From assembly GCF_028714775.1 (NCBI RefSeq), contig NZ_JAQTLS010000001.1, forward strand, positions 124,001 to 188,000: a DNA stretch of 64,000 bases, written 5' to 3'. Below are positions 2,136 through 63,058 of this stretch, piece after piece. Every line of letters begins with the position of its first letter. Position 1 is the first letter of the stretch. Origin of the DNA: Thiothrix sp. (GTDB lineage: Bacteria; Pseudomonadota; Gammaproteobacteria; Thiotrichales; Thiotrichaceae). A program made the translations under genes and the position numbers. The notes beneath the pieces were generated by a model that saw only the letters and a list, made by a program, of their open reading frames with translations, was not told the DNA's origin and searched no databases.

Positions 2136-4123
<1,988 letters not shown>

Positions 4124-7465: not shown

Positions 7466-7485
7466 ACCGGATACGCAAAAAGCTG

Positions 7486-7513
7486 TTGACAACTGTTGTT
7501 TTTACGCTACACT
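7486..7513 (+). promoter_or_regulatory. Sigma70-type promoter for the rtcB unit
   Basis: TTGACA at 7486-7491 (perfect -35) and TACACT at 7508-7513 (4/6 match to the -10) with a 16-base spacer. Transcription would start near 7520 and give a leader of about 190 bases before rtcB. Confidence 0.6.
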
Positions 7514-7553
7514 TTTCCACCATCATCAACCTTATTTTACGGAGACACTGACC

Positions 7554-7592
7554 ATGCTGAATAAACATAGACGGAGCAATTCAATTAACTAG
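7554..7592 (+). CDS. Possible 12-codon leader peptide upstream of rtcB
   Basis: ATG at 7554 reads MLNKHRRSNSIN and stops with TAG at 7590-7592. A GGAG at 7541-7544 sits 9 bases before the ATG. That GGAG is inside the first pairing arm, and the stop codon touches the second arm, so translation would melt or mask both. This is inferred from layout only; 12-codon ORFs also occur by chance. Confidence 0.35.
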   Translation: MLNKHRRSNSIN

Positions 7593-7669
7593 TGTCTCCC
7601 GCACTGTGCCGGGAGACTGATTTTCAGTCATCCGGTGGAGGAATGCGGCGCTTCGTTTGCAGCATGTCG

Positions 7670-7708
7670 AAAACCCCGGATGGCCTAAAAAACCAACGGG
7701 GTTTTTTT
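7670..7708 (+). terminator. Intrinsic terminator / RBS-sequestering hairpin abutting the rtcB start
   Basis: AAAACCCCG (7670-7678) pairs with CGGGGTTTT (7697-7705), with an inner TGG/CCA helix, and is followed by T's from 7702 to 7708. The rtcB ATG begins at the next base (7709). The GGGG of the right arm is also the only plausible Shine-Dalgarno for rtcB, so the hairpin could act on transcription, translation or both. Confidence 0.7.
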
Positions 7709-8911
7709 ATGCCTATCAGTTTTATGCTCAATAAGGGCAAAGTGCCGGTCAAGATTTTTACCGACGATGTGGACAGTGCTTCCCTCACGCAATTAGGAAA
7801 CCTGTCGCAACTGCCCTTTATCCATTCCCACATTGCAGCGATGCCGGATGTTCATCATGGCATTGGCGCAACTGTGGGTTCAGTCATTCCAACACGCGGG
7901 GCGATTATCCCGGCGGCGGTGGGTGTGGATATCGGTTGCGGGATGAATGCGGTGCGCTTGTCCCTCAAGGCCAGCGATTTGCCGGATAACCTGTACAACA
8001 TCCGCAGTGCAATTGAAAAACGTGTGCCGACGGGTTTCGATGAACACCTCCGCCCCAGCATCCAAGGCGCTACCTTGAAAAACATGGAAACGCATCTGGA
8101 TGTGATTACCGACAAGCATCCCGGCTTGGTGAAAATGCTGAAAAACTTTCACCATCAATGGGGAAAGCAACTCGGCACACTCGGCGGCGGCAACCATTTC
8201 ATCGAACTGTGTATCGACGAAAGTGATGACGTGTGGGTGATGCTGCATTCCGGTAGCCGGGGTGTCGGCAATGCCATCGGGCGTTATTTCATCGAAAAGG
8301 CCAAAAAGGATGTGGGTCGGGAACTGGGTCAACTCCCTGACAAGGACTTGGCCTATTTCACCGAAGGCACAAAACATTTCGACGACTATGTGGAAGCGGT
8401 CGGTTGGGCGCAGGATTACGCCATGATCAACCGCCGCGAAATGATGCGCTTGGTGTTGGATGCCTTGCAAGCCAGCAAAGCCTTGCCTGCTTTCACCACC
8501 ACCCGCGAAGCGATCAACTGCCACCACAATTACGTGCAAAAGGAAACGCACTTTGGCGCGGAAGTTTATTTGACCCGCAAGGGTGCGATCAGTGCGCAGC
8601 AAGGCCAGTTAGGGATTATTCCCGGTAGCATGGGTGCGAAATCGTACATCGTGCGTGGCTTGGGTAATGCGCAATCATTCTGCTCATGTTCGCACGGGGC
8701 GGGGCGGCGCATGAGCCGCTCTGAGGCTAAACGGCGTTTCAATACCTTGGATTTGGAAGCCCAAACCAAAGGCATCGAATGCCGCAAGGATAAAGGTGTG
8801 GTCGATGAAATTCCCGGCGCGTACAAGGACATCGACGTGGTAATGCAGAACCAGAGTGATCTGGTTGAGGTCGTACATACATTGCGCCAAGTGATTTGCG
8901 TGAAAGGTTAA
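7709..8911 (+). CDS. rtcB: RNA-splicing ligase RtcB (3'-phosphate/5'-OH RNA ligase)
   Basis: GTP- and Mn-dependent ligase that joins 2',3'-cyclic-phosphate or 3'-phosphate RNA ends to 5'-OH ends, as in repair of cleaved tRNA and rRNA. About 400 residues, collinear with E. coli RtcB: MPDVHHGIGATVGSVIPT, AAVGVDIGCGMNAVR, LGTLGGGNHFIE, MLHSGSRGVGNAIG, INCHHNYVQKE and the guanylylated His in FCSCSHGAGRRMSRSEAK. The frame opens further upstream, but similarity starts at MPISFMLNKGKVPVK, so ATG 7709 is chosen. No RtcA or RtcR is next to it. It leads a unit with the genes at 8925 and 9853. Confidence 0.95.
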   Translation: MPISFMLNKGKVPVKIFTDDVDSASLTQLGNLSQLPFIHSHIAAMPDVHHGIGATVGSVIPTRGAIIPAAVGVDIGCGMNAVRLSLKASDLPDNLYNIRSAIEKRVPTGFDEHLRPSIQGATLKNMETHLDVITDKHPGLVKMLKNFHHQWGKQLGTLGGGNHFIELCIDESDDVWVMLHSGSRGVGNAIGRYFIEKAKKDVGRELGQLPDKDLAYFTEGTKHFDDYVEAVGWAQDYAMINRREMMRLVLDALQASKALPAFTTTREAINCHHNYVQKETHFGAEVYLTRKGAISAQQGQLGIIPGSMGAKSYIVRGLGNAQSFCSCSHGAGRRMSRSEAKRRFNTLDLEAQTKGIECRKDKGVVDEIPGAYKDIDVVMQNQSDLVEVVHTLRQVICVKG

Positions 8912-8924
8912 ACGGAGGTGAAAC

Positions 8925-9878
8925 ATGGAAAAAACACAAGTTGAACTGATCCGCGAGTGCCTGAGCGGTAGCCGCACGGTGTTCCGTTACGCGCCTGACA
9001 GCTATGCCCTGCAACTGCTCAAGGACTACATCGGCAACGGTATGGGGGTGGCGGCTTTGCGCCGTTCCCCTTACGCCCGCTTGCTGACTAAGCCGATTGT
9101 GATGGAAGCACTGGCGCTGGCGAGCGCGGGTGTGCTGGAACCGTGGCATCTGGAGGCAGTGCTGGCGCAATACCGCGACCACAAGCCGCTCAATTTCATC
9201 CTCACGCTGGATGAGTGGGGCACGGAGGACAAGGGTGACCGCCACTGGAAGCAGATTTGCCGCACCGGTTACGACCTAGTGCTGCAACTCAACTTCGCCA
9301 GCGACCACCAGCAGCACTTCAAGACGCTGATCAAGACCGATGAAGTCGCACCGTTTTCCTACCACGGACACCCGGTACGCAAAGATGGCGGGCTGGAAAC
9401 GCTGGCGTGGGCGCGGATCGACCTCGATTTCGCCAGCAATCAGGCATTGATCGAAGAAATCCAGTCCGACTGGGTGAAAGGTGCGGCAGATCAGGATAAA
9501 AACTGGGATTACGGCGCGGAGAATATGCAGCAGTACCGCCAGGTGTTACGCCCTTACGCACGGGTATGGGATGAGGCTATCTTGACCGCTGCACTGTGTT
9601 TCATCCGTCGGGAACTCGGCATCCGTGACGTGTTCTATCACAGCTTCGATACCGGCAACCGCCTCAAAGGTATCGAGCGTTATTACCACTACGGCAAGCC
9701 ACCGCGTTACCTATACACGGAACTGCCGAAAAAATTTTGCTTCGCCAAAACCAGCGAAGCACCGGACTTTTTGAAACCTGTCCGGTATCTGCATTACCTG
9801 CAACGGCACGGTAAGGCGCAATGGTTCAAACTGCCAACACAGGAGAAATCTCATGGCAAAAAACAAGCAGCGGCGTAG
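8925..9878 (+). CDS. Unrecognised protein cotranscribed with rtcB
   Basis: 317 residues, soluble, no signal peptide or membrane helix, starting 13 bases after rtcB with a good AGGTG ribosome site. I do not recognise the family. One stretch, QALIEEIQSDWVKGAADQDK, recalls from memory the IEEIQSDWHQ motif of domains in phage and plasmid polyvalent proteins. The following region (WDEAILTAALCFIRRELGIRD, then LKGIERYYHYGKPPRYLY) has the same general order as those domains. The similarity is too weak to assign a reaction. Context suggests a role linked to RNA repair or ribosome stress. The C-terminus ends in a basic KSHGKKQAAA tail overlapping the next ORF. Confidence 0.8.
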   Translation: MEKTQVELIRECLSGSRTVFRYAPDSYALQLLKDYIGNGMGVAALRRSPYARLLTKPIVMEALALASAGVLEPWHLEAVLAQYRDHKPLNFILTLDEWGTEDKGDRHWKQICRTGYDLVLQLNFASDHQQHFKTLIKTDEVAPFSYHGHPVRKDGGLETLAWARIDLDFASNQALIEEIQSDWVKGAADQDKNWDYGAENMQQYRQVLRPYARVWDEAILTAALCFIRRELGIRDVFYHSFDTGNRLKGIERYYHYGKPPRYLYTELPKKFCFAKTSEAPDFLKPVRYLHYLQRHGKAQWFKLPTQEKSHGKKQAAA

Positions 9879-10095
9879 CCGCAATCCCGTCGCGCACCAC
9901 CTGTTTATTCATCGGGGAGGTGTTCATGAAAAAAGCAATTCTGCCAAACGGCAGGAAGACAAACGCCAGCTACGCAAGCTGGTGGATAAAGCAGGGGCCG
10001 GATTTTCCGGCCCTGATTTTTTGGGTGATACCCTGCGCCCAACGGTTATTTCTTCTGTGCTTCAAACTCACGGGTGTAGTGGTCAAAACAGTTAG
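9853..10095 (+). CDS. Small basic protein; reading frame runs through a terminator (nonstop-type ORF)
   Basis: ATG at 9853 with GGAG 7 bases upstream, overlapping the end of the previous gene by 26 bases. The first 50 residues are strongly basic: MAKNKQRRSRNPVAHHLF, then HRGGVHEKSNSAKRQEDKRQ. The intrinsic terminator at 9995-10022 lies inside codons 48-57, and the first in-frame stop is at 10093-10095. Most transcripts would therefore end without a stop codon, giving a product of about 55 residues. E. coli arfA (ribosome rescue) has exactly this arrangement. The sequence is not clearly ArfA, so the assignment is a hypothesis; the tail after the terminator may be fortuitous. Confidence 0.5.
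   Translation: MAKNKQRRSRNPVAHHLFIHRGGVHEKSNSAKRQEDKRQLRKLVDKAGAGFSGPDFLGDTLRPTVISSVLQTHGCSGQNS
9995..10022 (+). terminator. Intrinsic terminator ending the rtcB unit
   Basis: GGGCCGG (9995-10001), loop ATTTT, CCGGCCC (10007-10013), then TGATTTTTT: a textbook strong terminator. It lies within the open frame of the small basic ORF rather than after its stop. Confidence 0.85.
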
Positions 10096-63042: not shown

Positions 63043-63058
63043 TGGCACGGCATTTGCT
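63043..63058 (+). promoter_or_regulatory. Sigma54 (RpoN) -24/-12 promoter before the HupK-like gene
   Basis: TGGCACGGCATTTGCT matches the consensus TGGCAC-N5-TTGCT exactly, 46 bases before the ATG at 63105. Hydrogenase genes in other bacteria are commonly sigma54-dependent and activated by HoxA/HupR-type regulators. Confidence 0.8.

Follow-up and report, generated by a model that had tools for sequence, protein, structure and literature searches.

The rtcB locus and its leader

Within the window, a stretch of 64,000 nucleotides from a Thiothrix genome, an rtcB gene is followed by two further genes and preceded by a leader in which a short open reading frame, a series of complementary arms, and an intrinsic terminator lie downstream of a promoter. 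The features, in order, are the following:

7486..7513, + strand: sigma70-type promoter matching the consensus (TTGACA at 7486-7491, 16-nt spacer, TACACT at 7508-7513)
7541..7549, + strand: arm 1, containing the leader Shine-Dalgarno GGAG; partner 7591-7599 (P1)
7554..7592, + strand: leader ORF of 12 codons, MLNKHRRSNSIN; ATG at 7554, stop TAG at 7590-7592, immediately 5' of arm 2
7592..7601, + strand: arm 2; partner arm 1 (P1) or, via 7594-7601, 7610-7617 (P2)
7608..7620, + strand: arm 3; partner arm 2 (P2) or 7624-7636 (P3)
7624..7636, + strand: arm 4, the relay arm; partner arm 3 (P3) or, via 7627-7635, 7676-7684 (P4, the antiterminator)
7670..7708, + strand: intrinsic terminator; 7670-7678 pairs with 7697-7705, and the T-tract (7702-7708) abuts the rtcB ATG at 7709
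7676..7684, + strand: arm 5, which supplies the 3' strand of P4 and shares bases with the terminator 5' strand (7670-7678)
7709..8911, + strand: rtcB, 400 aa, of the MPISFMLNKGKVPVK type (PF01139, E 8.5e-130); relatives align to residue 1
8925..9878, + strand: gene 2, 317 aa; in other genomes it follows rtcB or has such a leader of its own
9853..10095, + strand: gene 3, a small basic protein with the motif RNPVA..RGGVHEKS; overlaps the end of gene 2

The arms of the window leader form a relay chain (1:2, 2:3, 3:4, 4:5, and 5:6) with two alternative pairings for every inner arm, and P4 and the terminator are mutually exclusive because they have bases 7676-7678 in common. The initial annotation had reported the promoter, the leader ORF, three pairings, the terminator, and the T-tract, and all are found in the window sequence at the coordinates it gave. 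It had also described the helices as excluding one another, and its three pairings are exact, but it overlooked the decisive relay helix, P3 (7608-7620 with 7624-7636), which is the helix chosen by RNAalifold and which extends the chain to five links. Judged from the promoter, the predicted RNA 5' end would lie near 7520. The 193-nt leader folds 3.95 standard deviations better than its dinucleotide shuffles (z -3.95), and none of 200 shuffles folds as well. A simple scan for promoters and terminators is by itself unimpressive and not informative against shuffled sequence, with one promoter-like site (mean of 1.4 in shuffles) and five terminator-like sites (3.7 in shuffles); its loop limit of 8 leaves the terminator at 7670-7705, which has a longer loop, unlisted. 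The Rfam search that the initial annotation had suggested returned no match at gathering thresholds in the whole window and none at E up to 1 in 7466-7760, and a Y-RNA-like or tRNA-like element considered 5' of rtcB was dropped for want of Rfam support. The leader occurs once in its own genome.

The initial annotation had stated that control by RtcR and sigma54 is absent here, which is correct for the window promoter. No credible sigma54 site was found at the window rtcB: the sole match with at most two mismatches within 7486-7711 lies at 7646-7660, inside the leader, and sigma54-type matches across the whole window number 117, against 114.2 by chance. The statement does not extend to the rest of the genome. 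A second rtcB lies about 180 kb from the window copy (C1:312167). A sigma54-type site, TGGCACAGCCTTTGCA, stands shortly upstream of it, and about 0.9 kb upstream the opposite strand carries a true RtcR gene, which scores 780.3 bits (cut-off 650). Both features of an RtcR-sigma54 regulon are present at the second copy, and the window copy does not qualify as a member of such a regulon. The window RtcB scores 145.6 bits against TIGR03073, a release-factor-linked RtcB subfamily, which is below the cut-off of 271.8.

At E 0.001 the product of gene 2 has no match in Pfam or NCBIfam, one sub-threshold match being returned for a homolog, and its AlphaFold model (pLDDT 79.8) has no confident match in the PDB (best Foldseek E 0.18). 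Homologs with strong scores are present in 13 of 369 genomes of the class, often beside rtcB and gene 3, and a fourteenth match (E 7.5e-4) is doubtful. Terminators or leaders also precede gene 2 or gene 3 where either is first, and in one relative gene 3 is the first recognised gene behind such a leader.

Conservation of the leader within and beyond the family

RtcB was found in 41 of 57 genomes, the window's own genome counted. When the upstream DNA of the 30 RtcB loci returned was read, the leader was found at 27 (L001-L027); L028 and L030 have no leader upstream of RtcB, and L029 is at a contig end. Among the leaders of the genus, likeness begins at the -35 box TTGAC and the DNA farther upstream differs, as read by eye. 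Six loci (L003, L008, L009, L011, L014, and L015) had been taken from the wrong strand; the first alignment was left unused and these loci were re-read. A covariance model, R1, was then built from 26 leaders (alignment A3, without the near copy L009). R1 has matches in 40 of 63 family genomes and in 35 of the 46 that are near-complete. Inspection upheld 38 of the 40, the matches in G058 and G081 being plain terminators only, and left 25 of the 63 family genomes, some of them incomplete, without a genuine leader. The feature next downstream of the 38 genuine leaders is rtcB in 35, gene 2 in one (L184), gene 3 in one (L186), and a contig end in one (L183).

Alignment and covariation analysis of the arms and terminator in relatives, a check that the initial annotation had itself put forward, revealed compensatory changes in the 43 aligned leaders (41 distinct) of alignment A5. 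This alignment was fitted to P3 and the terminator, with P4 outside the fit; a tighter E-value removed three reverse-strand matches, and several sources were left out, namely L117, L172, and L156, which have no R1 match at E 0.05, L096, which R1 matches at 8.5e-5 and which was omitted for its 31-codon ORF as read by eye, and L187-L190. In the two helices to which A5 was fitted, 94.7% of cells are paired, against at most 61.0% in slid controls, and 91 cells carry a double change, against 32 in shuffled alignments, a number that none of 500 shuffles attains. Compensatory changes are present in P3, and in the terminator 98.1% of cells are paired, with double changes in four of its eight pairs. 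P4 is paired in 93.5% of cells across the 41 distinct rows, against 30-49% (at most 49.3%) with slid partners, and has 29 double-change cells, against 9.6 in shuffles; neither the number of its pairs with a double change, which 64 of 500 shuffles reach, nor its number of further pair types is above shuffles. The antiterminator and terminator helices are mutually exclusive and conserved.

P1 and P2 are out of register in part of the A5 rows or fall outside A5, and were read with a simple helix finder in 37 curated leaders: P1 has at least 5 bp in 36, P2 has at least 5 bp in all 37, and the two have at least three arm-2 bases in common in 36. A pairing test against dinucleotide shuffles was scored for 25 leaders and counted for 21, with L005, L007, L013, and L014 left out as near copies of L001. 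The number of leaders with p<0.05 was 9 for P1, 15 for P2, 19 for P3, and 11 for P4, and kinship among leaders means that combined p-values from this test, or from the 24-leader set described below, are not independent. P1 is weak, reaching p<0.05 in 9 of the 21 leaders and in 9 of the 24 of the second set. P4 fails the test in 10 of the 21, partly through crude segment boundaries, and is unscorable in L172. An inverted repeat 3' of the T-tract (P6) was set aside as a part of the switch, a similar ATGCC tail being found in plain terminators matched by R1; its pairing reaches p<0.05 in none of the six leaders of the group nearest to the window and in 18 of the other 31, among which L017, of the same genus by label, was counted.

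At the level of the class R1 is weak, matching 18 of 369 genomes with many false matches to terminators: L065-L067, L069, L071-L073, L076, and L077 were plain terminators or coding ends on inspection, and L187-L190 were likewise rejected. Because R1 is weak beyond the family, distant leaders were sought by way of the RtcB protein. Upstream of RtcB in L107, L084, L117, L172, L174, and L156 we found leaders of the same design with few letters in common, and in L096 the same design with a longer ORF. A scan of named genomes covered the 80 best RtcB loci out of at least 562, 77 of the 80 having enough upstream DNA; the script applied to them required only a Shine-Dalgarno and a short ORF followed by a suitably spaced terminator. 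Candidates were found upstream of rtcB at 37 of these 77 loci, and their hosts, by title, include Marinobacter, Alloalcanivorax, Hahella, Acinetobacter, Peristeroidobacter, and Chitinimonas. Run on control regions, the script gave 2 candidates in 77 for the reverse strand, none in 70 and none in 64 for DNA farther upstream, and 4 in 78 for DNA downstream of rtcB. The 40 usable loci without a candidate include those of Psychrobacter and Thiodiazotropha.

Ribosome position and the proposed control of rtcB

A leader ORF with its own ribosome-binding site lies between the promoter and the terminator. Its length is 9-16 codons in the 37 curated leaders, for which ORFs were chosen by hand and one leader with a 31-codon ORF was excluded. 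The leader peptides are similar within the genus and unconserved between genera. What is conserved is a geometry, in which the Shine-Dalgarno lies in arm 1 and the stop codon lies at or beside arm 2. These ORFs contain neither a conserved series of regulatory codons nor a long stretch of any single codon, and no individual codon or residue persists from one genus to another. On that ground the switch is most likely to respond to stalling itself.

The effect of ribosome position was predicted by folding the RNA as it would be just before the terminator 3' strand emerges, with everything up to the leading edge of the ribosome removed; these folds are at equilibrium rather than co-transcriptional. 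In the window leader the predicted probability that the terminator 5' strand is paired is 0.98 for a ribosome at codon 5, 0.70 for no ribosome, and 0.49 for one at the stop codon, and the corresponding means over the 37 leaders are 0.65, 0.55, and 0.42. The value at codon 5 exceeds that at the stop by more than 0.1 in 26 of the 37, compared with a mean of 7.3 and a maximum of 11 when the middle region is shuffled; the opposite change, also by more than 0.1, is predicted in L156, L183, and L058. A second set consisted of 24 leaders from named, mostly distant genomes, taken from the 37 script candidates: 11 were dropped because the first set already covered their genus or contig, and two, L211 and L261, because their ORF was doubtful. 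In this set, codon 5 exceeds the stop by more than 0.1 in 17 of 24 leaders and in none is the difference below -0.1 (shuffled mean 4.8, at most 9). The predicted direction is that an early stall turns the switch on and a finished ORF turns it off.

The attenuator tied to translation of a short ORF 5' of rtcB that the initial annotation had proposed is supported by this conservation and covariation in relatives, and the leader is probably a ribosome-mediated transcription attenuator that switches rtcB on when translation stalls. We infer its start site, termination, induction, and the role of stalling as the signal, and envisage the following course of events. The arm-1 Shine-Dalgarno would recruit a ribosome to the leader ORF. 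During normal translation to the stop codon the ribosome's footprint would cover arm 2, allowing arm 3 to pair with arm 4 as P3 and leaving the terminator 5' strand free; transcription would then stop short of rtcB, the off state. A ribosome that stalled early would instead cover arm 1 and leave arm 2 free to form P2; arm 4 would then be released to form P4, the terminator would be blocked, and rtcB and genes 2 and 3 would be transcribed, the on state. If no ribosome were present, P1 would hide the Shine-Dalgarno and should favour the terminated fold. The switch would in that case respond to a ribosome that has begun the ORF but is unable to proceed. This is the weakest step of the scheme: the no-ribosome state is only intermediate in the fold test, so an off state for the untranslated leader is weakly supported. 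The signal would be the stalling and not the peptide, and an antibiotic, a cut tRNA or rRNA, or starvation should each serve.

Published expression data bear on this prediction in both directions. In Acinetobacter baumannii, an RtcB family gene is up 2.6-fold in half-MIC minocycline in one report (PMC9741440), and a locus labelled A. baumannii (L259) has a leader ORF and terminator upstream of rtcB; we assume that the minocycline-responsive gene is the rtcB copy behind this leader. Against the prediction, an RtcB family protein stands at 0.40 (lowered) in a table from an A. baumannii trmB study (PMC10653896). The Acinetobacter leaders are themselves divided in the fold test, in that L257 changes with ribosome position and L259 and L268 do not, L259 having a value of 0.73 in all three ribosome states.

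The folds would be operated equally well by a riboswitch or protein-binding attenuator in which binding of a ligand, of a cleaved RNA end, or of RtcB decides whether P3 or P4 forms and the ORF is incidental. RtcB acts on RNA, which lends this reading some plausibility, and RtcAB participate in RtcR control according to one report (PMC9650030). However, such a binder needs no ORF, and an ORF with a Shine-Dalgarno and a stop codon beside arm 2 is present in all 37 curated leaders; no conserved unpaired motif was seen by eye across the distant leaders, in which conservation resides in complementary arms whose letters vary; and the leader has no match in Rfam. We therefore regard a binder as unlikely, and this analysis yielded no evidence for the control by RtcB itself that the initial annotation had entertained. 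Another reading would make the terminated leader chiefly a trans-acting small RNA, with a constant amount of read-through supplying rtcB transcripts. An RNA of about 185 nt is indeed what the predicted promoter and terminator would yield, but a small RNA has no need of the conserved P4 that competes with the terminator, and the element has kept its place ahead of rtcB or the other operon genes where the DNA farther upstream varies; this reading is very improbable.

It is also quite unlikely that particular codons of the ORF sense uncharged or cleaved tRNAs, as in amino-acid- or tRNA-specific attenuation. In 60 distinct leaders, Gln is enriched early (37 of 240 residues at positions 2-5, 21 of 295 later, p 0.003) and Asn is enriched at the last position (15 of 60, 69 of 535 elsewhere, p 0.017), with p-values that are uncorrected for multiple looks and relatedness, and residues Q3 and F4 of the Pseudomonas leader peptide PA5471.1 are reported to matter in a cca mutant. 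The Asn excess is nevertheless modest against the positional base make-up (56 observed, 38.9 expected), the biases are too weak to name a tRNA, and the absence of any codon or residue kept across genera, or of a long single-codon run, is not what specific sensing would leave. The initial annotation's suggestion that the leader senses particular damaged tRNAs is thus not indicated by peptides that are unconserved between genera and show weak residue biases only. The preferred reading remains a switch that responds to ribosome stalling whatever its cause.

The trp and his attenuators combine a leader ORF, alternative hairpins, and a terminator, with ribosome position as the switch. The window leader is built alike, but it has no regulatory codon run, it possesses an additional helix between the ribosome-sensing arms and the antiterminator, and its target is RNA repair rather than biosynthesis. 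Leaders of the ermC type likewise have no amino-acid specificity and sense slowed translation, as described in PMC2965389, but they regulate translation of the gene, whereas here a terminator is controlled. The RtcR-sigma54 system of rtcBA likewise has an rtcB gene as its target, and in this genome it accompanies the second copy; it employs a protein activator and a sigma54 promoter, in contrast to the sigma70-type promoter of the window copy.

The attenuator, which the initial annotation had offered as possibly novel, is not without precedent, as comparison with armZ (PA5471) of Pseudomonas aeruginosa shows, and a literature search for published rtcB attenuators in this clade gave only armZ. 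As published, this RtcB-like target lies behind a short leader peptide (PA5471.1, 13 aa) and a terminator, and drugs that target the ribosome stall ribosomes and relieve armZ termination. The product differs in being an anti-repressor of MexZ. We take armZ to belong to the release-factor-linked subfamily TIGR03073, and the window RtcB lies below the cut-off for that subfamily. The published armZ model has segments with a 3:4 terminator, whereas the window leader forms a relay of five overlapping helices; the two leaders were likened by architecture, from descriptions rather than from leader sequence. The target and the general logic therefore have a precedent in armZ; our searches turned up no earlier description of the relay design, or of such control for this RtcB subfamily and operon and over so wide a range.

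Significance for RNA repair

To our knowledge, the inducers of bacterial RNA repair are a largely open matter outside the RtcR system. We think it somewhat better than an even chance that the five-helix stall attenuator is a general and old control of the rtcB/317-aa gene 2/RKGGVHxKS module across the Gammaproteobacteria, that it follows the module whichever gene leads, and that two rtcB copies hence have two senses, RtcR-sigma54 at one and stalled ribosomes at the other. If rtcB is indeed switched on by stalling, a ligase that mends cut tRNA and rRNA would be induced by the direct result of the damage, a stuck ribosome, in a design that would account for no activator gene being needed. The two unnamed operon partners would gain a likely role in ribosome or RNA repair, and drugs that target the ribosome would be expected to induce rtcB in many genera from the environment and in some of clinical importance. 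It would also set the Pseudomonas armZ leader in a wider context.

The junction between the terminator and rtcB varies among these leaders. Terminator and rtcB ATG are directly adjacent in L001-L015, which make up 15 of the 16 genomes of the window's genus; in L017 and in other genera they stand apart by about 30-80 nt in most loci and by as much as about 210. In L001-L015 the 3' strand of the terminator sits at the expected position of the rtcB Shine-Dalgarno, so that in these 15 genomes a formed terminator hairpin might also hinder rtcB translation.

Genes 2 and 3 of the operon

Two genes lie downstream of rtcB in the operon of the window:

8925-9878, + strand: gene 2, encoding a protein of 317 aa
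9853-10095, + strand: gene 3, encoding a small basic protein with the motif RNPvA..imRKGGvHxKSrS

The product of gene 3 belongs to a family of small basic proteins that has no name and shares this motif, and it is a candidate ribosome- or RNA-binding factor. A motif search of the fetched loci recovered 20 gene 3 copies, counted as distinct over the first 30 residues, including those at loci L095, L096, L244 and L253. Gene 2 was aligned across 13 sequences from 12 genomes; a family assignment was sought for it and none was found, and structure comparison returned only weak GNAT-like matches (best E 0.18).

Terminator pairing and unusual leader loci

In leaders outside the window's closest group, the 3' strand of the terminator can have an alternative partner, a segment past the T-tract (ATGCCYG), as at loci L018, L023, L025 and L184. 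This pairing reached p<0.05 in 18 of the 31 leaders outside the closest group versus none of the 6 inside it, and a comparable tail is also present on plain terminators.

Several loci depart from the usual arrangement. R1, the covariance model made from 26 leaders, matches L105 (genome G362) strongly (3890-4012, - strand, E 7.9e-9), where the genes that follow encode, rather than RtcB, a basic protein of 49 aa and a protein resembling PcfJ (PF14284, E 1.7e-10). Internally deleted or fragmentary rtcB copies at L182 (G026) and L084 (G294) retain the leader in front, and extra rtcB pieces, likewise deleted or fragmentary, occur in G001, G003, G005 and G007. L015 (G004) has the usual leader ORF and arms; the 5' strand of its terminator is apparently absent, and the assembly contains N letters there.

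Inspection by eye also revealed short ORFs, MKNTLLPFADLFS at L112 and MQQLHLQYLFGI at L116, upstream of release-factor-linked RtcB genes, the former with a 15-bp complement downstream. These ORFs may represent additional leader switches.

A second rtcB and sigma54-type sites

The source genome contains a further rtcB outside the window (loci L176 and L191):

C1:309617-313369: region containing this second copy, a sigma54-type site in front of it and, encoded on the other strand, RtcR

Similar sites were also spotted by eye 5' of other rtcB genes whose products begin with MTITxNYEV or alike, for example at L175 and L158. Within the window, TGGCACGGCATTTGC at 63043-63057 is a perfect sigma54 consensus and the sole match with zero mismatches.
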